Shown piece by piece: positions 2,022 to 25,274 of a stretch of 25,402 bases of DNA. Below the pieces are notes generated by a model that made no database searches, was not told the origin of the DNA, and was given only the letters and a program-made list of their open reading frames with translations. The DNA comes from a virus: positions 1 to 25,402 of the IMG/VR virus record IMGVR_UViG_3300031456_000057; one strand, 5' to 3'. Position numbers and translations under genes: made by a program. How positions within the stretch are numbered: position 1 is the stretch's first letter; every line of letters starts with the position of its first letter.

Positions 2022-3697
2022 TAGCGCTTCTCTCCGTGGTTCGGAGAGGTCGGCGGGTACGTCTCAGTCCACGGGATACCGATCTTGCGGTATTGGGTGT
2101 CGTTCCACCGCATGCCCCATTGGCCCTGGTCCAGGTCACCGAGCGACACATACCACTGTTCGCCGTTGGGGGCCTGGAGGAGAAGTGTCCGACCGGGGTC
2201 ATTGATGACCTGGAATTTCTCCCACGAATCTTCTGTGCCGTCAGCCTCGGGAACGAATACCGCGGTGATGTCCCCCTCCCAGCCGTACTGAGGACCATTG
2301 ACAATGATCTTCTTGGCTTGGCGGTTGAGGTCGGACACCAGCGGGGTAAAGATGCCGCGGGCGCGGGGCCGCTTGCTGGAGTGCTCGTGAACCCAGAGCC
2401 GGATATTGAGCGCCGGCACGAGCGGGTCTTTGAGCCACCAGTCATCGGTGAGCGGGGTCGCCGTGGCGATGTTGCTGTAACCGGACGTGACGGTAATCGA
2501 ATTGAGGATGCGATACGCGGCGCCGCGATACCAGCGCGTGCGACCGGACGGGGCTTCGTAATCGTAGAGGAGCGAATCGCGCTCAGCGTCTACGTCGACC
2601 TGGAGACCATTCCGGAGCAGCGCCCAGGTAACGCCCATATTGTCGCTGTATTCGAGATTATATGTGTCGGTCGCCGGCGAAGGGCCGCCCTCATGGAGGT
2701 CCAGGCGAATGCGGTTGAGGTCGGCCTCATAAGTCGCGGTGAGCAGCGGCTCCGGGGGACCCGGTACGTCTTGCACCCATTGCCAGTAGTTCCACGTGGA
2801 CAAGTGCCGGCCGATACCGGACCACACCTGCTCGACCTGGACATAAGCCCGGTAGGTCCCATTGGGGAAGTCCCGGTTCACACCCCAGAAAACGTCCTCG
2901 CCCTTAATCCACCCGTCGCCGTCCGCGAGTGGGGACTGCACTGTCTCGTCGAACGCGACGCTGGTTTCCGGGTCAAATGAGGGCTGCGTATAGACGTCCT
3001 CGGTGAAGATCCGGGATCGGAACGCCTGCTGCTTATCCGACTCCGCGTCTTCGTAGACCCATTGAATGGTGGGGAGGGTGATGTCAACGAGCGGACCGAC
3101 CGGGCCGACGACGGTTACCGCGGGGCGCTCGTTGTAATCCAAATCAACGAGCACCTCGGAAATGCGTAGCTCAACGTCTTCGTCGTCGGTGCGACCGAGG
3201 CTCACAAAGAAATCGTTGAAGCTCTGCTCTGTCCATTCGCCGCCGCCCGGCTGCTCCAAATAATAGGAGAGGTCAACCGTCGTCCACTCGGGCGGGTCCG
3301 GCGGATCTGTGGGGTTCGGCTTCGGTGGCTTACGCGGACAGCGGAACCCGAACAGGATACGGAAAATGAACTCGATCAGGAGGCCAATGAACCCGTGCAT
3401 ATGGAAGCCGCAATGAGGGTGCGGGGTGGGCGGGTCCGGGTCATCATCGGTGGCCTGGATTTTCTGCACCCGGATACGACTCCGCACAGCAAAAATCTTC
3501 GCGCCGTCCGGAACGTCGAAATCCTGGATCGAGAACTTAGCGATCTCGCCATCGGTCTGCACCCGCTGATTGACCTCAATATAGGTGAGGTCATTGTCAT
3601 CATTGAGGCAGGCGTGCATGGTGATCCCGGGCGGGCCGACCTTAGCCCAAACACCTTCTTGCAGAGTCCCGTCCGGGCGAGTCGTGATGATGGGCAT
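2021..3697 (-). CDS. minor tail protein with a hydrophobic His/Cys/Pro insertion, 558 aa
   Basis: The ATG overlaps the tape measure stop (TGATG). The position directly after the tape measure is where siphophages encode distal-tail and tail-tip proteins. Residues 1-80 are beta-rich. Residues 86-140 form an odd insertion: an acidic/proline stretch, a His/Cys cluster (HPHCGFHMHG), a strongly hydrophobic run (about residues 102-118) and a Pro/Lys stretch (RCPRKPPKPNP). Residues about 140-330 carry strands typical of actinophage tail proteins (for example GTYRAYVQVEQVW). Residues about 335-430 look like a fibronectin type III-like module (YNLEYSDNMGVTW and RWYRGAAYRI). The C-terminus (about 440-558) resembles a carbohydrate-binding-like beta domain. 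Function beyond a tail structural role is inferred. Confidence 0.7.
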   Translation of the reverse strand: MPIITTRPDGTLQEGVWAKVGPPGITMHACLNDDNDLTYIEVNQRVQTDGEIAKFSIQDFDVPDGAKIFAVRSRIRVQKIQATDDDPDPPTPHPHCGFHMHGFIGLLIEFIFRILFGFRCPRKPPKPNPTDPPDPPEWTTVDLSYYLEQPGGGEWTEQSFNDFFVSLGRTDDEDVELRISEVLVDLDYNERPAVTVVGPVGPLVDITLPTIQWVYEDAESDKQQAFRSRIFTEDVYTQPSFDPETSVAFDETVQSPLADGDGWIKGEDVFWGVNRDFPNGTYRAYVQVEQVWSGIGRHLSTWNYWQWVQDVPGPPEPLLTATYEADLNRIRLDLHEGGPSPATDTYNLEYSDNMGVTWALLRNGLQVDVDAERDSLLYDYEAPSGRTRWYRGAAYRILNSITVTSGYSNIATATPLTDDWWLKDPLVPALNIRLWVHEHSSKRPRARGIFTPLVSDLNRQAKKIIVNGPQYGWEGDITAVFVPEADGTEDSWEKFQVINDPGRTLLLQAPNGEQWYVSLGDLDQGQWGMRWNDTQYRKIGIPWTETYPPTSPNHGEKR

Positions 3698-16022: not shown

Positions 16023-16315
16023 TACCGACCCCCGGCAACCTGGACGAATTCAACCCGGCCGCGGTCCAGGATTACCTCGCCGTCCATATCGACAGGTGGG
16101 GTGCCAGGCTCGATGAGCGTCACGTCACGCAACACAATTAGCCTCCCCCTCCGCGACCATAGGACACCGTTCATTGCTTTACCGTCGATCAGCGACACGA
16201 GTACGCGGGCGCGTAGCGCGAGCCGGTCATTGCGAATTCGGAACGCCGACCAGGTGGCGGCGCCGATGAGAAGTAGTGCGACCTCCAGCAGGAAGATCGT
16301 GGTTTGCCAGGTCAC
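16022..16315 (-). CDS. membrane-anchored protein with an Sm-like C-terminal region, 97 aa
   Basis: The GTG at 16315 overlaps the esterase stop as GTGA, which fixes the start; the longer frame from 16531 lies inside the esterase gene. Residues about 5-24 (TIFLLEVALLLIGAATWSAF) form one membrane segment, followed by basic residues (RIRNDRLALRAR). The remaining 60 residues (VLVSLIDGKAMNGVLWSR, LIVLRDVTLIE, then DMDGEVILDRGRVEFVQV) follow the Sm1/Sm2 pattern of the Sm/LSm fold: a 'v.V.l.dG....GvL' strand pair, then a closing 'DG...i.r..V.fv.v' pair. The Sm assignment is my reading of the pattern, not a search. It is conserved in position before the portal, coupled to it by TAATG. The function is unknown. 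Confidence 0.72.
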   Translation of the reverse strand: MTWQTTIFLLEVALLLIGAATWSAFRIRNDRLALRARVLVSLIDGKAMNGVLWSRRGRLIVLRDVTLIEPGTPPVDMDGEVILDRGRVEFVQVAGGR

Positions 16316-18237
16316 GGTGTCCCGTAAAACGTTTTCTGGTTCGCCTCGGCGAGCTGACGATCCGAGGTTGACAGCACCGACGTCCAGAACACCGCCTCGG
16401 AGAACGTCATCGGGGCCGGTGCCAGCGAGCCAGAGCGGACGACACCGCCGATAGCGAAGCGGTCCCGAGCGGCTTCGCCACCGGTTCTGGTGTAAGCCAC
16501 CGAGGCCAGGTCGACCGCGCCGTCCAACCATTGGGCCATCGCGCTACCTGTGTCCGTCGCGGAGAATTGGTGAATGACATTGTTGAAAGTCGACAGGTTC
16601 CCTTGATAGGTGACCGATTGGTCCGGCGGGGACAACACCGGGCGGGCGCGGGTGAAGCCGCCCGCGGCATTGTTATCCGGTTCAGTCAGCCCGTACTGCA
16701 ACACCGATGAGGTGGACACACTTTCCGCCCACCAACGTTTCTGCGTGCCCGGGGTGGGGGCGGACAGAACCGCGCACATTGACGCCGCGCCGGCCGCGTA
16801 GAGGTTCGCCACCGTAGCGAATAGGTGGTCATCGACACCGTCGAACGAGGCGGCCGGTTTCCCACCCGAGGTGATGACCGCCCCGGCATTCACCAGTTTT
16901 GGCTGTGACGTGGTGGTGGCCTGAGTGAGGTGTCGACCGTTACCGCTCTGGTCATACCAGGTGTCTATGAACCCATCGCCCGCCCCGCAGAACGTCAACA
17001 GAGCGGCGGTGTCCAGGGCGCCAGCAGAGAACCCGATGTCGAGCGTGGTGCTGTCCGAGGAACGGCGCACCTTTACCGCGCTACCCGCGTAGCTAGGCAC
17101 GACCAGGCGCAGCGAGTAGGCGCGGCTGGTGACGGTGGACTGGCCGAGCCCGTTGTTTGCCGGGGTTGCGGAAACTGTCGCGGATGCCGTGCCCGGCCCG
17201 GCGGTGGATACCGCGATCACGCGGAAGTCATAGGAGGTGCCGGTGGTTAGCCCAGTCACCGCAGCTGTCGGCGAGGTGACGGTGGCGATGGTCGCAAACG
17301 TTGGCCCCGCGGTGGTTTTGCTCTGGACGTTGTAAGACCCCGCACCCGACGTTGCGGACCAGGTGAGGGTTAGCCCGGTGGCGCCAACGCCGGTGGCCGC
17401 CAGACCGGTGACCTGCCCCGGCACAGCGGGCGGAGTGGGGTCGGCCGCACCATTAAGAATCCGTTGGTACGCGTCGAACATGGCGCGGCCGAGGATGCGC
17501 TGGGCAATGGCGTTGTAATGGTTGCCGTCGTTGTTGTTGTTGGCGTACACCCCAGGGGCGACCCGAACCCGGGTGACCCGTGACGGGGTGGCCAGGTGAA
17601 TGGTGTTGATCGCCGCCCGGGTACCCGTCGCCAAGTACTCGGGGACCATTTGCCCCATCACGAACGGCAGGGTCGACACACCCAGATCCGTGCGGGCACC
17701 AGTGATCAGGGCGTCCAGGTCGGCTTGGTACGTCGCCCCGCTGATTCCGTTGTCGCCGTCTGTTTCGCCCTGCACCCACAGAATCGCCGCGATCCTGGCT
17801 TTCGCGCCGGCCGCCGCGAGTGCCGCTTGCGCCTGTGCGACAGCTTGGGCGTAGAGCCCCCCGGCGACACCGCGGCGCCATCCCGTTGCCGATGCTGTGG
17901 AGAGTTGGGTTCCGCCGAGCGCGGACGGCACCAGCAATACCCTCCGGTTGATCGGAGCTGAATGCAGATACCAGCGTGCGAATACCAGGCCGGGGCCGAT
18001 TCCGGATGGTACGTCTTTCATGGCCAGCGGCTCGACGGCCTGCGAGATCACCCCGGCATAGGTGCCGGAAGCGCCCCACTGCTGAATGCGCGGGTCCGAG
18101 GGATCGTAGCGGGTTGTGTCGTATGTGGCGCCCCGGCCGGACATATTCGACTGACCCCACAATAGGATGAGGTCATAGCCGACGTCGGAGACATTCAGCG
18201 CCGATGTCGAGGGCGACGACATACCCAGCTTCGGCAC
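16312..18237 (-). CDS. SGNH/SASA-type esterase with Fn3 and arabinofuranosidase-like C-terminal domains, 641 aa
   Basis: A GTG start lies 3 bases after the upstream stop; an ATG at 18222 is an alternative. Residues about 20-262 are an SGNH hydrolase of the sialate O-acetylesterase/CE6 type: GQSNMSG with the Ser at 30, WVQGETDGD with Glu at 158, and DGNHY with Asp 237 and His 240. Residues about 270-360 are a fibronectin type III domain (PGQVTGLAATG to ATVSATPA). Residues about 370-641 resemble the lectin-fold domain of ArfB-type arabinofuranosidases (AYSLRLVVPSYAGSAVKVRRSSD, IDTWYDQSGNGRHL, ASFDGVDDHL). There is no signal peptide. The protein probably sits on the virion and removes acyl groups from a surface polysaccharide. 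A place between TerL and portal is unusual for such a protein. Confidence 0.85.
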   Translation of the reverse strand: MPKLGMSSPSTSALNVSDVGYDLILLWGQSNMSGRGATYDTTRYDPSDPRIQQWGASGTYAGVISQAVEPLAMKDVPSGIGPGLVFARWYLHSAPINRRVLLVPSALGGTQLSTASATGWRRGVAGGLYAQAVAQAQAALAAAGAKARIAAILWVQGETDGDNGISGATYQADLDALITGARTDLGVSTLPFVMGQMVPEYLATGTRAAINTIHLATPSRVTRVRVAPGVYANNNNDGNHYNAIAQRILGRAMFDAYQRILNGAADPTPPAVPGQVTGLAATGVGATGLTLTWSATSGAGSYNVQSKTTAGPTFATIATVTSPTAAVTGLTTGTSYDFRVIAVSTAGPGTASATVSATPANNGLGQSTVTSRAYSLRLVVPSYAGSAVKVRRSSDSTTLDIGFSAGALDTAALLTFCGAGDGFIDTWYDQSGNGRHLTQATTTSQPKLVNAGAVITSGGKPAASFDGVDDHLFATVANLYAAGAASMCAVLSAPTPGTQKRWWAESVSTSSVLQYGLTEPDNNAAGGFTRARPVLSPPDQSVTYQGNLSTFNNVIHQFSATDTGSAMAQWLDGAVDLASVAYTRTGGEAARDRFAIGGVVRSGSLAPAPMTFSEAVFWTSVLSTSDRQLAEANQKTFYGTP

Positions 18238-18841: not shown

Positions 18842-20551
18842 CTATAGAACTTCCAGGTCACCGGATTCGTACGCGGATACGCGGGGCGGCTGATGGTGCA
18901 TTGCGCGGTTCATCGCGGTTACCAGTGCGGCGATGCCGTCGATCTTGTCGGCGGCCCGTGACTTATCGGGCTTGACATTTCCGGCGGGGTCCATAGCCAC
19001 GGCTAGGTTGTCGGTCATCCAACGGGCGACCGGGTTGCCACCATGCCGCAGCATCGGCTTTTCGGCGGTGCCTTCGACCAGTAGCCTTTTGACCTCTTTG
19101 AGCGCGGGGCTCAGCGACGCATAGCCTTGCCTGACTTGCACCATGGGTGCACCCTCAGAGGTCAACCTGTTGACCAGGTCGGTTGCGTTCCATGGGTCAT
19201 ACGCCAATTCGACGGCGCGGAATTTGGAGAGGTCCGAGGAGATCTGCGCTTTCACCACTTCGTAATCGGTGACATTGCCGCTGGTCAACCGGAGCAGACC
19301 GAGGCTTTTCCACACCGTTGCGGCGCCGGCGGTTCGCTTATCCATTTCCCGCAAATTGTCCTCGGGCATCCAGAACCGCCAGAGGACATCGTGCCCGCCG
19401 TCGGTGTTGGGGAATATCCAACAGAGCGACGTGAGGTCGCTGGTTGCCCCCAGGTCCAGGCCACCATAGGCAACGCGCCCGTTGAGCCTGTCCTCCACCA
19501 CCATCCCGGCGTTGCGGTCCCATTCGTCGAGCATGAGATAGCGGGTGGTCTGCCGGGTGCGAATGCCGAGGTGGAGCCGTTGGAATCGTGCGAAGTTGAC
19601 CGGGCTCTGTTGTGCCCGGCGGGATTCATCCTCCAGGGCCTCGCGGGTCGGTGCGACCCCAAAGCCCGGGTTTGCCTTCCGCCAGGTGGACAGCTGGTGC
19701 GGATCATCCTGCTCGGTGGCCGCGAAGATCACACCCCATTGCCGGGGGTTCCGCAGTGTCCGCGCGGCCAGCTGCTCGATATAGCCGCGCTTCGTCCCGT
19801 AGACGCTATTCGGGCGACCGTCATCGGGGGTGGTGATGATGAGGATGAGCGGCTGTTCCCGGGCGCCCGTGCCGGATTCGACGGCGTCGAGCACGCCCGC
19901 GTTCTTGTGGACGTGCAGCTCATCAATGACGGCGCCGTGGACGTTCGCGCCGTGCAGCAGATCACCGAGTGAGCTAGCGACCTCGAACACGGAGCCGTCG
20001 CTGTCGCGGACAATGCGGCCCTGGAGCGCGCGCACCCCCGCGGACCGCAGCTGCGGTGAGCGTTTAGCGATCTGCGCGGCGGGGTCGAAACACTTGCGGG
20101 CCTGGTCTTTACCGGCGGCGACGGCGATCACCTGGGCGCCCGGCTCCCGGTCCCCGAAAGCCAGATACAGCGCGAGGCCGGCGGACAGTGTGGTCTTTCC
20201 GTTCTTTCGGGGTACGTCGATATAGGCGTTGCGGATAATCCGCACCAGGTCACCGTCATCATTGGGGGCGACCCAGCCGAACACGGGTGCGATCAGGAAT
20301 GCGACCTGCCAGGCGTCCGGCTCCAGCGGCCGGCCTCGCCATTTACCTTGGGTGTGCCGCTGGAATCGGAGCGACTTGATAACCCGATCGACCCGCGCCG
20401 GGTCGAATGTCGCACCCGGGTAGTCCACCGGTTCCGGTGTCCTCAGGTAGGGGACACACCAGTCCGGTAGCACGTACCCCCGTTCCCCTAGGTACCATTC
20501 AACCTCGGGCGAGAGGTTAGCTACCGGTGTCGGCGTAGGGGTTGTCTTCAA
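18842..20551 (-). CDS. terL: terminase large subunit, 569 aa
   Basis: A TTG at 20551 overlaps the TerS end by 35 bases. No better start is available before the conserved region (VEWYLGERGYVLPDWCVPYL). The ATPase half has a Walker A-like PRKNGKTT (about 114-121), a Walker B VIDELHVHKN (about 208-217) and a motif III-like LILIITTPDD. The nuclease half starts with AYGGLDLGATSDLTSLCW (Asp about 366) and has a second acidic cluster (VELAYDPWNATDLV). The pattern fits the HK97-like Terminase_1 group. The protein powers DNA packaging through the portal and cuts the concatemer. Confidence 0.96.
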   Translation of the reverse strand: MKTTPTPTPVANLSPEVEWYLGERGYVLPDWCVPYLRTPEPVDYPGATFDPARVDRVIKSLRFQRHTQGKWRGRPLEPDAWQVAFLIAPVFGWVAPNDDGDLVRIIRNAYIDVPRKNGKTTLSAGLALYLAFGDREPGAQVIAVAAGKDQARKCFDPAAQIAKRSPQLRSAGVRALQGRIVRDSDGSVFEVASSLGDLLHGANVHGAVIDELHVHKNAGVLDAVESGTGAREQPLILIITTPDDGRPNSVYGTKRGYIEQLAARTLRNPRQWGVIFAATEQDDPHQLSTWRKANPGFGVAPTREALEDESRRAQQSPVNFARFQRLHLGIRTRQTTRYLMLDEWDRNAGMVVEDRLNGRVAYGGLDLGATSDLTSLCWIFPNTDGGHDVLWRFWMPEDNLREMDKRTAGAATVWKSLGLLRLTSGNVTDYEVVKAQISSDLSKFRAVELAYDPWNATDLVNRLTSEGAPMVQVRQGYASLSPALKEVKRLLVEGTAEKPMLRHGGNPVARWMTDNLAVAMDPAGNVKPDKSRAADKIDGIAALVTAMNRAMHHQPPRVSAYESGDLEVL

Positions 20552-20987
20552 TGGGTCCGCCGGCCTCGCGGCTGCGGATCGTGCTCCGTGCGCTCGGCGT
20601 CAGCCCGAATTCCTGGGCGAATGACCGGATGGTCTGGGCGGTGTCCCGCTGGATCTGCAACGCCGGGTTACGCACCAGGTTGCCGTGCAATCCGACCACC
20701 AGCACTGGGCTCTTTGCCAGGACAGCGCACGCCCGGCGGTGCTGCACCACTGCCTCACAGAAGCAGCGCAGCGAATCGGAGTCGCTCTGAAACGCGAGCC
20801 CCATACCCTCCAGCTCGCGGACGGTTTCCCGCCACACGGTCTGCACCGCGTGCGATGCCTCGGCCGGGACCTGCGGGGAATTGGGGACCGGGACCGGTTC
20901 GTCCTGATTCAGCCTGTCCTGGTGCTTCTCGCCGTGCAGAATGCGCAGCTTCGTCGGCAATGGAGGCCGACCGACCCTACCGCCCAT
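20517..20987 (-). CDS. terS: terminase small subunit, P27-like, 156 aa
   Basis: The ATG has GAGGAGATC upstream and overlaps the FolE stop by 11 bases. The opening GRVGRPPLPTKLRILHGEKHQDRLNQDEP is the hallmark of the P27-family small terminase subunit, and the helical core (WRETVRELEGMGLAFQSDSDSLRCFCEAVVQHRRA) and NPALQIQRDTAQTIRSFAQEFGLTPSAR also match. It binds the packaging-start DNA and hands it to TerL. Because the phage probably carries modified guanines, its recognition of DNA would have to tolerate the modified base. Confidence 0.92.
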   Translation of the reverse strand: MGGRVGRPPLPTKLRILHGEKHQDRLNQDEPVPVPNSPQVPAEASHAVQTVWRETVRELEGMGLAFQSDSDSLRCFCEAVVQHRRACAVLAKSPVLVVGLHGNLVRNPALQIQRDTAQTIRSFAQEFGLTPSARSTIRSREAGGPIEDNPYADTGS

Positions 20988-21558
20988 GATGATCTCCTCG
21001 GTGGTTATTGAGCACGGCCACCACGTCGGGGTGACTCAGGTCTTCCCGCCACCTACCGGTGAGGGCGTGCGTCGTGGTGCGCGTGTCGGACTGCTGGACG
21101 CCGCGCATGGTCATGCAACCGTGCTCCGCGGTGATGATGCAGGCCGCGCCAATGGGCTCGAGTTCCGTTTGCACGGTCGCCGCGACCTGGTAGCCCAAGC
21201 GTTCCTGGACCTGGAGGCGGGCGGCGTAGTCGCCGAGTACCCGGGCGAGCTTGGACAGCCCCACGATCCGGGCACCCTCGGCGGGCCGGTAGGCGACCGT
21301 CGCGGTACCGACGATCGGCAACATGTGGTGTGCGCACGTCGACCGAACCCGGATACCGGACACGATCACCAGCCCAGCGTCCGGGGGTGCGGGGAATGTG
21401 CGGGCCAGGTGCCGCGCCGGGTCGACCTCATAGCCGCCCAGAGCGGCGCTCCAGGCGCGCGCTACCCGCTCCGGGGTGTCCTCACTGTGCTCGCCCTCAT
21501 CGACGTCCAGCGCCGTCAGGAGGTCACGCACCGCGGCGGCTGTCTTCTCCAGGTCCAT
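20977..21558 (-). CDS. folE: GTP cyclohydrolase I (FolE), 193 aa
   Basis: The ATG at 21558 follows GGAGAGGGGG and overlaps the QueE stop as TGATG; a GTG at 21582 in the same frame is less likely. The protein shows the FolE1 signature: STCAHHMLPIVGTATVAYRP (about 73-92), GLSKLARVLGDYAARLQVQERL (about 100-121) and HGCMTMRGV (about 146-154). The zinc ligands are Cys 75, His 78 and Cys 148, and all are present. The enzyme turns GTP into 7,8-dihydroneopterin triphosphate, the first step of both folate and 7-deazaguanine pathways. Encoding it in a phage raises precursor supply for DNA modification. It forms the end of the modification block. Confidence 0.96.
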   Translation of the reverse strand: MDLEKTAAAVRDLLTALDVDEGEHSEDTPERVARAWSAALGGYEVDPARHLARTFPAPPDAGLVIVSGIRVRSTCAHHMLPIVGTATVAYRPAEGARIVGLSKLARVLGDYAARLQVQERLGYQVAATVQTELEPIGAACIITAEHGCMTMRGVQQSDTRTTTHALTGRWREDLSHPDVVAVLNNHRGDHHGR

Positions 21559-22286
21559 CAATGCCCCCTCTCCGTGCCCCACGCCAAAACGTGTAGGCGG
21601 TGAGAGGCGTTGACGGAATGGTGCGCGGCGGCGGAGGCGATCGCCGGCCAGCGCTCTGCGAGTTCAACGGCGGTGGCACCCTCGGGCATGACCCATACAC
21701 GGTCACGCGGCCACCCCATTTCAGCGGCCCAGTCCGCCACCTGGCCGACTTCCTTGGGGGTCTGGCACACCACTTTGAGGTACATCCATGGGAACCGACC
21801 GAGCTTCACCCAGTCCGGATGAAGCGTCGGATCCTGGTGACCGCGGTGCAGCCCAGCATTGGTGAGCTTGGGAGACACCACCATCTCGGATACGTGGTCA
21901 ATGGTGTCCACGTTGGGCGAGATCGTGCCGTTGGTCTCCAGGTGAATCCGATATTTGTGGGCCTCCAGGGTCTGCAGAAGCACCCGCCAACCGGGTTGAT
22001 CCTGCTGGAGCAGCGGCTCACCACCAGTGAGCACCACAATATTCGTGTTGATCCCGCACGACATTGCCTTAAGGGCGACCAGCTCGGCGGACATCATATG
22101 GCGTTGCGCACGTAAATCGAACCGTGAGGCATCCCAGGTGTACGCGGTATCGCACCAGTCGCAGCTGAGGTTGCAGCCCATGAAGCGGATGAACGTTGCC
22201 GCGCGGCCGGCGAAAGGTCCCTCACCCTGGATCGTCGGCCCGAACACCTCGGACACCGGGAGGTCGGTGGTCGCTAGCTTCTCCAT
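21558..22286 (-). CDS. queE: 7-carboxy-7-deazaguanine synthase (QueE), 242 aa
   Basis: The ATG at 22286 (MEKLATTDLPVSEVFGPTIQGEG) overlaps the QueD end by 13 bases; the longer frame from 22424 is rejected because its first 46 residues run inside QueD. The radical SAM cluster motif is CNLSCDWC (Cys 38, 42 and 45, spacing 3 and 2), preceded by IQGEGPFAGRAATFIRF. TGGEPLL follows at about 87-93 and ETNGT near 115. The enzyme converts 6-carboxy-tetrahydropterin to 7-carboxy-7-deazaguanine with SAM and iron-sulfur chemistry. The length is normal for the family. It needs host iron-sulfur assembly. Confidence 0.96.
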   Translation of the reverse strand: MEKLATTDLPVSEVFGPTIQGEGPFAGRAATFIRFMGCNLSCDWCDTAYTWDASRFDLRAQRHMMSAELVALKAMSCGINTNIVVLTGGEPLLQQDQPGWRVLLQTLEAHKYRIHLETNGTISPNVDTIDHVSEMVVSPKLTNAGLHRGHQDPTLHPDWVKLGRFPWMYLKVVCQTPKEVGQVADWAAEMGWPRDRVWVMPEGATAVELAERWPAIASAAAHHSVNASHRLHVLAWGTERGH

Positions 22287-22696
22287 AGGTCGGTTTCCCA
22301 CGTCGCCGAATTGACGTGTGTCTCGTCGACCGTCACCCGAAAGCCCGGCGTTCCCTCGAAGTTCTGGCGCGCCCACTCGGCGACCCAGCGTGCAATGTTC
22401 TCCGTCGACGGATCGTTGCCGCACAGAATGACCCCAGGGAGGTCATACTTAGCGAGCGGATCGTTACCGTTGAGCAGTAGGTGATGGTCGTAATTGGTGT
22501 CCAGGTAGGCGCGGAACTTGCGCTTGACGTCACCGAAATCAAGCCCGCCGAGGTACCCGTCCACGTCGATTTTGTGACCCAGCAAATCGAGCGTTACCCA
22601 CATGCTGTGACCGTGAATGTTCTCGCATTTACCGGGGAGCATGAACAGTCGGTGCGCCACTTCGATGTTGTGTCGAACCCGCAGAGTCCCGCTCAT
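22274..22696 (-). CDS. queD: 6-carboxy-tetrahydropterin synthase (QueD), 140 aa
   Basis: The ATG at 22696 overlaps the methyltransferase stop as ATGA, which supports it over the ATG at 22732. The family signature is visible: zinc ligands His 15 (EVAHRL), His 28 and His 30 in CENIHGHS, with the catalytic Cys 24 (C-x3-HGH). Then DFGDVKRKF, LDTNYDHHLLLN, PSTENIARWVAEW and VDETHVNSATW follow. It takes the FolE product and forms 6-carboxy-tetrahydropterin, the QueE substrate. Size and motifs are normal. Confidence 0.96.
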   Translation of the reverse strand: MSGTLRVRHNIEVAHRLFMLPGKCENIHGHSMWVTLDLLGHKIDVDGYLGGLDFGDVKRKFRAYLDTNYDHHLLLNGNDPLAKYDLPGVILCGNDPSTENIARWVAEWARQNFEGTPGFRVTVDETHVNSATWETDLWRS

Positions 22697-23472
22697 TTCT
22701 GTCCCCGCACGGTCCAGAATACGGGCATGCATAGCACCGTTTCCGGGTCTTCCATAAGGTCTAGGTAGTCGTCTATCTCGGTGTCTGTGATGCCGAGATC
22801 CATCAATTCGGTAGCCATTTGGGACACGTTGGCCTGCATCAATTCGGCGACCAGACCGCCGCCTACGCCCTGGTGGACCAGCCCGTGACCGGCCACATTG
22901 ACCAGCCCTTGCCCGAGTAGCTGACCGTGCAACGCGGAGCCGAGGTGAGGGTTGCCGCCGCGGGAGCCGAGCACCTCGGTAAACGCGTGACCGACCCGGT
23001 TGATCAGGTCCGTGATCGGGGCATCCGGCCGGTAGTCGAACAGGGGGTCAAGCTCCTCAACGATCAGCCAGCCGCCGGGGGCGAGCGCGGCCACCAGCTT
23101 GGGGAGCACCTCCGGCCACTGGGGTAGGTGGCTGGCGACCAGCCGCACGTGCACCAGGTCCAGGTTGATACCGGGTGGATCGTCGGTGACCACGTCATGC
23201 TCCAGCACCGTGCACAACGACCGGGCCGGGAGCGATACCCATCGGGTGTCCAGGTCGGTGGCGTACACCTCGCCCAGCTCGCCGACCCGCTCGCCCAGCC
23301 AGGCCGCCACCGAGCCCGACCCGCAGCCGACCTCCCAGCACTGCCAGCCCTCGGTAGCGCCCACCTGGGACAGCTGGGCGGTCGTAATGCCGTCATACAT
23401 CGCGGCCAACAGGGCGAGCCGGGCGCGGGCCTCGGGGGCGTCGTTGTCGAGCACGTAGTCAGTGCGCCTCAC
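22693..23472 (-). CDS. SAM-dependent class I methyltransferase inside the modification cassette, 259 aa
   Basis: The GTG at 23472 overlaps the DpdA stop as GTGA; an upstream start at 23505 would lie inside DpdA. Motif I is CWEVGCGSGSVAAWLGERVG (about 46-65), followed by EVYATDLDTRWVS, a post-I acidic motif, then LDLVHVRLVASHLPQWPEVL and APGGWLIVEELD. The fold is that of a Rossmann small-molecule or natural-product methyltransferase rather than a DNA methylase: I see no NPPY or Pro-Cys motif. Its substrate is unknown. Being encoded between DpdA and QueD suggests it acts on a 7-deazaguanine base or a precursor, but it might be an unrelated passenger. Confidence 0.88.
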   Translation of the reverse strand: MRRTDYVLDNDAPEARARLALLAAMYDGITTAQLSQVGATEGWQCWEVGCGSGSVAAWLGERVGELGEVYATDLDTRWVSLPARSLCTVLEHDVVTDDPPGINLDLVHVRLVASHLPQWPEVLPKLVAALAPGGWLIVEELDPLFDYRPDAPITDLINRVGHAFTEVLGSRGGNPHLGSALHGQLLGQGLVNVAGHGLVHQGVGGGLVAELMQANVSQMATELMDLGITDTEIDDYLDLMEDPETVLCMPVFWTVRGQK

Positions 23473-24512
23473 GCCGGCACCCCCTCGGGTACCTGCGCGC
23501 GGCACCAGCGGTGATGATCACGGCCGTAGATCCGCCACACCCGCGGGACCTCCGGGCCGGTGTGCAGCTCGGCGTCCGTGGCGCTGACCGCGTCCGGGAG
23601 CCACTGCCCGGCGGCCACGGAGTTGTACAGATGCGGGCCCGCGTTGTGCAGCTCGGTGTCCAGCTGGCCGACCCAGTAGCCGTCAGCGGACCGGGCAACC
23701 GAGCTGTACACATGCGGACCCGCGCCGCCGCCGCTGTGCTCGACCAGCTTCACCGGGGCCGGCACCGGCACGGACGCTTTCAGCACCTCATCCGCAACCG
23801 CATAGGCCAGCGACATTGCCTGCATTAGCTCCCGCCGACCGGTCATCTGATCAGGCATCCGGCGGGTACGGACCAGCGAGGCCAGGTCCACACCATGCGC
23901 GCGGAGGTCATCACGACTCCGGGTCAGCTTCGCATGGTCCGAGATCGGGGTATTCCGGATCTCCTTGCCGTCGAAATACACCACGGTCCCGAACCGGAAC
24001 GCACCGGACACCGACGACGCGTCAGCCGAGTACGGGCGGGCCGCGCGTAGCGCTGTCATCGAGCCGACACCGAGGGCATGGATCCCGCCGCCGAGGTCTT
24101 GCGCGCGACGCTGAAGCATCCGAACCCGCGACAGCTGGTGCTTCAGCGGCAAGCCGACCGTGCCACCCACGGCGACATAGCCGACGTCTTTCACCATCGC
24201 GTCGAACTCTTGGAGCGTCCCGCCCTTGGTAAACACCGGCATAACCGGCAGCCCGCGCATATGCAGCTTCCGAGTCTGTGCCGCGGTGCGTACCGGATCA
24301 CCGATCACGTCCAACGTCATCGCGTGATCCCAGCAGCCGCGCCAACGCTCGAGGAATTCCGCATACTCATTGAGGGTGATAATGCGCCCGGTGGTGAATG
24401 CGGTGAACGCCCCGGAGTCAATGAGCATCCTGCCGCACACCAAATCCCGGCGGACCTTGGCAATGTCAGTCGACTCATGGAAGGCATACGAGCACAGCAG
24501 ATTAACAGCCAC
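23469..24512 (-). CDS. dpdA: DpdA-type DNA 7-deazaguanine transglycosylase (TGT-like), 347 aa
   Basis: I prefer the GTG at 24512 (MAVNLLCSYAFHES) because family members begin just before this strand; GTGs at 24521 and 24572 are possible and none has a clear ribosome binding site. Hallmarks of the tRNA-guanine transglycosylase fold, numbered from 24512: IDSGAFTAF (Asp 32, equivalent to the substrate-binding Asp of the DSGGF motif), TLDVIGDP, YVAVGGTVGLP (TGT 'GG..vG'), IHALGVGS, and SADASSV (Asp 164, probable nucleophile). No CxCxxC zinc site is seen. Phage DpdA proteins exchange guanine in DNA for a 7-deazaguanine base. The last 90 residues form an extra tail with two GPHxYxSVA motifs (265-273 and 292-300). 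Confidence 0.9.
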   Translation of the reverse strand: MAVNLLCSYAFHESTDIAKVRRDLVCGRMLIDSGAFTAFTTGRIITLNEYAEFLERWRGCWDHAMTLDVIGDPVRTAAQTRKLHMRGLPVMPVFTKGGTLQEFDAMVKDVGYVAVGGTVGLPLKHQLSRVRMLQRRAQDLGGGIHALGVGSMTALRAARPYSADASSVSGAFRFGTVVYFDGKEIRNTPISDHAKLTRSRDDLRAHGVDLASLVRTRRMPDQMTGRRELMQAMSLAYAVADEVLKASVPVPAPVKLVEHSGGGAGPHVYSSVARSADGYWVGQLDTELHNAGPHLYNSVAAGQWLPDAVSATDAELHTGPEVPRVWRIYGRDHHRWCRAQVPEGVPA

Positions 24513-24696
24513 GGTGCGCACCGCCGTTTCGCCGGCGCCGCTGACACCAGCATTCGCCGAGTCCGTGCGCACTCGGGCTGTGCTGGCGCACCATTCGACC
24601 GAGCCAGGTCGCCCGCCACGGCTGCTTCCACCTGTCGCTACCCGGCAGGTAGTACCCGTGGTTACGCATCCGCCACCGCTCGACCAGTCCGCGCAC
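24502..24696 (-). CDS. small unknown ORF between the ParB-like gene and dpdA, 64 aa
   Basis: A GTG at 24696 overlaps the ParB-like stop as TAGTG, and the frame ends at 24502, overlapping the preferred dpdA start by 11 bases. The protein is very basic and Trp/Arg-rich (WRMRNHGYYLPGSDRWKQPW). The N-terminal half looks like protein, the C-terminal half (GECWCQRRRRNGGAHRG) less so. If it is real, its basic character would fit a nucleic-acid-binding partner. If dpdA starts at 24572 the overlap grows to 71 bases and the ORF becomes less likely. Confidence 0.4.
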   Translation of the reverse strand: MRGLVERWRMRNHGYYLPGSDRWKQPWRATWLGRMVRQHSPSAHGLGECWCQRRRRNGGAHRGC

Positions 24697-25274
24697 TAGA
24701 TACCGGCCTCGTTGAGCAGCGTAAAGACCCGATGCATGTCGTCCTCGCCGTCCACCAACAGCCAACGCTGGTGCACATCAGGCGGGACCTGGCAGCGAAT
24801 GACCGGCCAGCCTGCCCGGTCGGTGTCCTCCAGGATCTTCTCGTCGTCATCCGCGGCGGGCTCCAGCAACGAAATCAGCGCGTCAAGGTCGCCCTGGTCG
24901 AAGCCGGTGCCCTTCAGATCCGGCAATTCACCCAGCAATTCCGCTAGGACAGCCTCGTCATAGCCGCCCCTATCGGCTGTGCGGTTGTCCGCGGCAACGA
25001 TTCTCTTGGCCTGGTCGTCGTCAACGTCCACGAAACAGACCGCAATGTGGCTCCAGCCCTCATCACGCGCGGCCATAAGCGTATGATTTCCGGCGAGCAC
25101 TTCATTCTTTCGCTTCGTGTGCGTACCAATATTCGCAACGATCGGCTTGTACTGGCCATTCACACGCAGCGATTCGCGTATCGCTTCGACGTCTCCCTTA
25201 CGCGGATTCAATCGGTAGGTCCGCAATTCTTTAACCGGGATACGCTCAGTCTTCAATTCGTTGGAGGTGGACAA
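24696..25274 (-). CDS. ParB-like nuclease/CTPase-domain protein, 192 aa
   Basis: The start is a TTG with AAGGGA 7 bases upstream. The first 100 residues are a ParB-type domain: VKELRTYRLNPRKGDVEAIRESLRVNGQYKPIV (N-P-R and 'i..s...nG...Pi'), NEVLAGNHTLMAARDEGW (about 58-74), VDVDDDQAKRIVAADNRTAD. The usual Arg after GxH is Thr here (GNHTLMAA), as is common in phage ParB-like proteins. The C-terminal half is acidic and ends WLLVDGEDDMHRVFTLLNEAGI. ParB-like genes sit beside DpdA in other phage modification clusters, and bacterial DpdB is, as I recall, also ParB-related. A role in guiding DpdA to DNA is therefore an inference. Confidence 0.85.
   Translation of the reverse strand: MSTSNELKTERIPVKELRTYRLNPRKGDVEAIRESLRVNGQYKPIVANIGTHTKRKNEVLAGNHTLMAARDEGWSHIAVCFVDVDDDQAKRIVAADNRTADRGGYDEAVLAELLGELPDLKGTGFDQGDLDALISLLEPAADDDEKILEDTDRAGWPVIRCQVPPDVHQRWLLVDGEDDMHRVFTLLNEAGI

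Follow-up and report, generated by a model that had tools for sequence, protein, structure and literature searches.

The virus record IMGVR_UViG_3300031456_000057 carries a predicted actinophage DpdA2-type cassette for 7-deazaguanine DNA modification, with a class I S-adenosylmethionine (SAM)-dependent methyltransferase (MTase) in the position of QueC. The window analysed here is the complete IMG/VR record of 25,402 bases, itself a fragment of a phage genome. Cassettes of this type are already known, and the main point of interest is the replacement of QueC by the MTase. We lean towards the reading, which we judge somewhat probable, that this is an actinophage DpdA2-type cassette whose MTase methylates 7-carboxy-7-deazaguanine (CDG), most likely as a carboxyl ester, with DpdA placing the base in DNA. 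The cassette lies at the upstream end of the window and is transcribed in the order ParB-like gene, small open reading frame (ORF), DpdA, MTase, QueD, QueE and FolE, followed by the terminase small and large subunits. Compared loci, viral or genome contigs, are labelled L plus a number. The cassette genes are:

24696..25274, minus strand: ParB-like gene, 192 amino acids (aa), first in the cassette (phrog_723, E=1.6e-52)
24502..24696, minus strand: small ORF of 64 aa between the ParB-like gene and DpdA, conserved in L005
23469..24572, minus strand: DpdA2-like DNA guanine transglycosylase, ORF of 367 aa (phrog_887, E=3e-28; motifs; tree)
22693..23505, minus strand: class I SAM-dependent MTase (Methyltransf_12, 5e-10; Methyltransf_23, 1e-8)
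22274..22732, minus strand: QueD, 6-carboxytetrahydropterin synthase (PTPS, 3e-22)
21558..22424, minus strand: QueE (phrog_2076, 3e-63; Radical_SAM, 1e-9)
20977..21582, minus strand: FolE, GTP cyclohydrolase I (GTP_cyclohydroI, 9e-53)

The cassettes of phages Saguaro, Sour and Sonali are organised as ParB-DpdA-QueC-QueD-QueE-FolE, with the terminase directly next in Saguaro and Sour, whereas the window and L005, a contig from another metagenome, are organised as ParB-DpdA-MTase-QueD-QueE-FolE. A preliminary description of this DNA had considered that both the gene order and the MTase differ from simple gene sets; the order matches the actinophage cassettes gene for gene, and the MTase does set the window apart, since it replaces QueC. 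The search for QueC (PF06508) could not detect it anywhere in the record and, with the MTase in its slot, the encoded pathway would end at CDG. L005 is the nearest relative of the window, its DpdA being 70% identical over the alignment and its MTase, in the same slot, also 70% identical. L005 also possesses an additional ORF of 106 aa between the MTase and QueD (2837-3157, plus strand), which is absent from the window and belongs to no Pfam family. The next DpdA relatives, L006, L009 and L087 (a Pseudonocardiaceae contig), carry QueC in the slot, and the window and L005 nest inside QueC-bearing cassettes on the DpdA tree. The swap therefore looks local and recent.

The formation of CDG from GTP by FolE, QueD and QueE is established chemistry, and the three window enzymes would be expected to follow it. 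QueC uses CDG as substrate and transforms its carboxylate to an amide and then to a nitrile, giving 7-cyano-7-deazaguanine (preQ0) (PMC13329287). Because the MTase takes the place of an enzyme whose chemistry is at the CDG carboxylate, and uses SAM, carboxylate methylation is the simplest reading. The MTase would cap the carboxylate with a methyl group from SAM, the likeliest result being a methyl ester, and could do so before or after the base enters DNA. CDG as methyl acceptor and the carboxylate as methylated atom are what we infer from the genomic arrangement. DpdA, probably assisted by the ParB-like protein, would put the base into phage DNA in exchange for guanine. The resulting nucleoside, 2'-deoxy-7-methoxycarbonyl-7-deazaguanosine, would presumably protect the DNA of this phage from restriction enzymes that recognise guanine; restriction protection is known for related phages (PMC6884629). 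The preliminary description had proposed that the cassette makes a 7-deazaguanine base for insertion by DpdA. This core is well supported, also by the grouping of DpdA, and what had been missed is the absence of QueC with an MTase in its exact slot, so that a methylated derivative of CDG is now predicted instead of preQ0. The list of products to look for given in that description already included the deoxynucleoside of CDG (dCDG) and methylated forms.

The window MTase possesses the features of SAM binding, including the motif WEVGCGSGSVA, an acidic residue after strand 2, and the motif PGGWLIVEE. The MTases of the window and L005 score above the cut-off of Methyltransf_11, 12, 23 and 25, which assigns them to class I, with a Rossmann-type SAM-binding domain. 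Matches of the window MTase to other family profiles were weak and non-specific, such as trans-aconitate 2-methyltransferase (6e-6), and far below cut-off. An AlphaFold model, for which only one homolog was available, reached a predicted local distance difference test (pLDDT) score of 38 and was discarded. Close relatives of this protein could not be detected in 50,697 deposited phage genomes, nor among viral contigs beyond L005, nor among genome contigs searched by conserved peptides. Searches of whole genomes revealed actinobacterial MTases 31-39% identical to the window protein, which was thus probably recruited from a cellular MTase family.

Two further types of MTase were found in comparable cassettes. 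The second type is a protein of 213 aa present in the slot of L010 and L011, with a 73% identical homolog in L012 that has a Pfam methyltransferase match of 1.2e-4, just under the curated cut-off. In L012 (1568-4407, plus strand) the slot MTase is accompanied by a divergent QueC after FolE, perhaps giving two separate modifications or one of mixed type. The third family, represented by L065 (Methyltransf_23, 4e-12), was searched with the L065 protein alone and then with the family alignment. It comprises 54 viral loci, of which 51 possess at least one deazaguanine gene and 39 possess DpdA. Many of them, such as L099, L102, L110, L113, L116, L120 and L123, share the order DpdA-MTase-QueD-QueE-FolE, and others (L105, L108 and L132) are arranged differently. 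The family is well defined by invariant CCGR and YTS-EHM motifs, and its predicted structure is a confident class I MTase fold (pLDDT 94.5). BLASTP revealed no relation between the window MTase and either of the other families, and when the profiles of the first and third families were compared, only the SAM motif aligned.

Deposited phage genomes (the same 50,697) contain two relatives, at 25% identity, of one third-family member and otherwise no close relative. These two proteins, L121:5854-6603 (MW202621) and L122:4842-5738 (MW202510), belong to uncultured Manatee Spring phages and adjoin genes for a pyrimidine hydroxymethylase, a nucleoside triphosphate pyrophosphohydrolase and a dCMP deaminase, another apparent DNA-base hypermodification cluster. 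In L097 (1916-3016, plus strand) the third-family MTase continues at its C-terminus into a fused T-fold domain that resembles QueF (2e-4, below cut-off) and has a cysteine that looks conserved. QueF was also considered as a partner of the MTases and rejected, as the matches were weak, all below cut-off and mostly on FolE, which has the same T-fold, the L097 tail being the exception; the related MTase records contain no clear QueF.

The replacement was further evaluated by searching QueC over whole records, some of which are near-copies. QueC was present in 46 of the 50 DpdA records without these MTases and in five of the 58 records with one (2/30 and 3/28). Among non-duplicate loci possessing DpdA, QueD, QueE and FolE, those without an MTase comprised 57 with and five without QueC, against two with and 22 without QueC where an MTase was present (Fisher p 1e-13). 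DpdC acts downstream of preQ0 and is needed for the formation of 2'-deoxy-7-amido-7-deazaguanosine (dADG) (PMC11888242), so that cassettes not making preQ0 should lack it. DpdC (DUF6884) exceeded the cut-off in 16 of the 50 QueC-type records, against none of 50 MTase records (p 7e-6), a difference subject to the same lineage confounding as the QueC counts. The 68 other ORFs around control cassettes included no methyltransferase, and the idea that deazaguanine cassettes carry such an MTase as a general passenger was rejected on this ground. The presence of the MTase changes eight times on the best DpdA tree. Four independent pairs could be formed on well-supported branches of this tree; QueC changed in the opposite direction in 3.2 of the four on average, and in the same direction in approximately none (sign test p 0.125-1).

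All six genes of the cassette named in the preliminary description (20977-25274) were recovered on the minus strand, each with a family match, and the catalytic motifs that it had called complete align with those of solved enzymes. The FolE motifs CAHH and AEHGCMTMRG align with the zinc and catalytic residues of 4uqf, the QueD motif C-x3-HGH with 3qn0, and the QueE cluster CNLSCDWC (Cx3Cx2C) and C-terminus LHVLAWGTERG with 5tgs. The true starts are likely internal to the listed ORFs, at approximately 24512 for DpdA (a conserved GTG), 23472 for the MTase (GTG), 22696 for QueD (ATG), 22286 for QueE and 21558 for FolE (ATG). The coupling of the genes, also part of that description, is visible in the DNA as overlapping stop and start codons between DpdA and the MTase (GTGA), the MTase and QueD (ATGA), and QueE and FolE (TGATG); the cassette genes are thus probably translated as one coupled series. 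The start of the 64-aa ORF (24502-24696) overlaps the stop of the ParB-like gene, and its end overlaps the DpdA start. This ORF matches no Pfam family and is strongly conserved between the window and L005 (LVRGL.ERWRMRNHGYYLPGSDRWK.PWRATWLG; RWRMRNHGYYLPGSDRWK.PWRATWLG).

The assignment of DpdA as a DpdA-type transglycosylase held as well, by its phrog_887 match and by the ParB-DpdA-Que neighbourhood recurring in many loci, and the homology search proposed for detecting a placement with tRNA-modifying tRNA-guanine transglycosylases (TGTs) gave no such placement. The window DpdA has no Pfam match at E 0.1 and no sequence match in the PDB, thus none to tRNA TGTs. In an alignment with the Saguaro, Sour, Sonali and Bipper transglycosylases it shares the motifs DSGA, LDVIG and S-D-S/A-S, invariant across seven aligned phage DpdAs, and in the DpdA tree it is placed with Saguaro, Sour, Bipper and other phage DpdAs. 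A pattern search identified 79 viral loci with DpdA relatives, which increased with later searches to 117 non-duplicate DpdA loci. A ParB-like gene is present in 98 of the 117, and in 85 it is located directly upstream of DpdA. By sequence, the window protein is a phage DpdA of the DNA-acting type and not a tRNA TGT. The C-terminal tail of the DpdAs repeats a GxHLYxS / GPHxHLA element one to several times in alignments of the window (23469-23800, minus strand), L002, L004, L005, L006 and L009. Tandem DpdA paralogs were found upstream of QueC in L013, L015, L019, L023-L025, L031, L088, L090 and L091, which include contigs of Streptomyces and Kutzneria genomes. L119 (2059-10029, plus strand) harbours three consecutive DpdA genes together with QueC and a third-family MTase, possibly separate DpdAs for separate bases.

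Several observations weigh against methylation of CDG by a QueC-replacing MTase. Five MTase records (L012, L119, L125, L126 and L128) also possess QueC, which rules out a strict mutual exclusion of the two genes. The counts of co-occurrence are not independent: the majority of third-family loci sit in one half of the DpdA tree, and four independent well-supported pairs are too few for significance once phylogeny is corrected for. For the window MTase, only two contigs with a member of its family are known. In Foldseek, the third-family MTase matches many class I enzymes, both cap guanine-N7 and small-molecule MTases, at template modelling (TM) scores of approximately 0.5-0.6, which do not discriminate the substrate. 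Finally, as the record is a fragment of 25 kb, the phage could encode QueC on a part outside it, or a host QueC could supply preQ0.

This last point leads to the least unlikely of the alternatives, in which QueC comes from the host or from the unsequenced part of the phage genome, the cassette makes the deoxynucleoside of preQ0 (dPreQ0) like Rosebush, and the MTase acts elsewhere, on DNA, RNA or a host metabolite. Besides the fragmentary window, this is consistent with the match of Corynebacterium glutamicum, among the control genomes, to the QueC family and with the presence of both genes in L012 and L119. However, most MTase records are without QueC, even on contigs of 45-99 kb, DpdC is absent too, and other cassettes have no MTase. 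It is unlikely, in our judgement, that the MTase methylates the 7-deazaguanine product at another atom (O6, N1, N2 or the ring), with the carboxylate left free, so that the product would be a non-ester methylated form of dCDG. Purine-type acceptors are plausible because in Foldseek the third family has neighbours among the cap MTases acting on guanine N7 and among small-molecule enzymes such as the MTase ToxA; nevertheless, methylation at another atom leaves unexplained why MTases replace specifically QueC, a carboxylate enzyme, and why three unaligned families do so.

The methyl ester could also be an activated intermediate, which another enzyme or ammonia would turn into dADG, the amide, or into a different acyl derivative, making the MTase a SAM-dependent substitute for the ATP-dependent QueC. 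The shared slot and the QueF-like tail of the L097 MTase, with its retained cysteine, are in agreement with this, but the window cassette has no recognised amidotransferase and the tail occurs in one contig, below the QueF cut-off; we regard such an intermediate as clearly improbable. Very improbable is a role of the gene set in boosting queuosine in host tRNA or folate metabolism, with DpdA as a tRNA-modifying TGT. Although the PHROGs name of the DpdA family is queuine tRNA-ribosyltransferase, the lack of Pfam and PDB matches to TGTs speaks against it, as does the grouping of DpdA with phage DpdAs whose neighbours in DNA-modification cassettes are ParB-like genes and DpdC. Moreover, dPreQ0 was measured in the DNA of Rosebush, a phage with DpdA and four preQ0 synthesis genes (PMC6884629).

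If carboxylate methylation of CDG is correct, the cassette predicts a modified DNA base unreported so far. We tentatively put forward, as a real possibility, that phages possess an undescribed DNA base, 7-methoxycarbonyl-7-deazaguanine or another methylated CDG, made with at least three mutually unalignable MTase families replacing QueC. DpdA and QueD would then flank an exchangeable tailoring slot whose gene sets the final chemistry. A simple reading rule for phage deazaguanine cassettes would follow, namely that the final modification can be told from the gene in this slot. Many QueC-less phage cassettes that otherwise look broken or CDG-making would also be accounted for; the swap of QueC for an MTase recurs in dozens of uncultured phages. 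Since a methyl ester is easily lost or amidated in common DNA work-up, earlier analyses could have missed it or taken it for dCDG or dADG. Text searches of the literature revealed nothing relevant on a CDG methyl ester, or on an MTase together with CDG, in phages; Cui et al. 2023 (NAR 51:9214), which reportedly describes DpdL, DpdM and DpdN, was outside their scope, and a prior report is possible.

The terminase, portal and other apparent structural genes of the window are encoded on the minus strand, and the genome is siphovirus-like. The terminase genes that follow the cassette are:

20517..20987, minus strand: terminase small subunit (Terminase_4 / sm_term_P27), directly downstream of FolE
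18842..20551, minus strand: terminase large subunit with TerL ATPase and nuclease domains (phrog_9, 1.7e-137)

A SASA-type carbohydrate esterase with a fibronectin type III domain is encoded between the terminase and portal genes (16312-18237, minus strand), which is an unusual site for a host-surface enzyme; L005 has no such esterase.

Methylation of carboxylates on nucleobases is known in tRNA, where it is carried out by Trm9 and TYW4, among others. CmoM, a class I MTase, makes the methyl ester of 5-carboxymethoxyuridine (cmo5U) in tRNA (PMC12783734). The window MTase is proposed to act in the same manner, forming a methyl ester on the carboxylate of a hypermodified nucleobase by means of SAM; CmoM acts on a tRNA uridine and the window MTase would act on a 7-deazaguanine, and no close sequence relation between the two was found. 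DpdM is reportedly a phage dPreQ1 (7-aminomethyl-7-deazaguanine deoxynucleoside) methyltransferase that depends on both QueC and QueF and whose fold had not been seen before among nucleic-acid methylases (Cui et al. 2023). Both proteins would thus be phage methyltransferases acting on a 7-deazaguanine derivative, in the window a presumed one. Going by this description of DpdM, the window MTase differs in being class I and in belonging to a cassette without QueC.

Similar to the window, the cassettes of the Mycobacterium phages Bipper and Typha possess the same gene order and are missing QueC. Their slot, in contrast, is occupied by an unrelated protein of 141 aa without Pfam match (L001:5770-6195, minus strand; L040:2043-2468, plus strand), a candidate CDG-tailoring enzyme, which we take to be possibly DpdL, reportedly a CDG decarboxylase. 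The DNA of Bipper may carry CDG (PMC6884629).

The closest known systems are the preQ0-type cassettes of the actinophages Rosebush and Saguaro (Mycobacterium), Sour (Gordonia) and Sonali (Arthrobacter). Rosebush DNA contains dPreQ0 at approximately 28% of G, and the deletion of dpdA abolishes DNA modification in phage CAjan (PMC6884629). These cassettes share with the window the order and orientation of the ParB-like gene, DpdA, QueD, QueE and FolE, possess a DpdA of the same family, and like the window are mostly located beside terminase genes. Of the preQ0-type system (group 2 of Hutinet et al. 2019), the window possesses the DpdA/DpdA2 homolog, FolE, QueD and QueE, but not QueC. The actinophage cassettes harbour QueC between DpdA and QueD, whereas the window harbours a class I MTase there and has no QueC. 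If the slot gene sets the product, QueC would lead to preQ0, the DpdL-like protein possibly to 7-deazaguanine, and the MTase to the ester.

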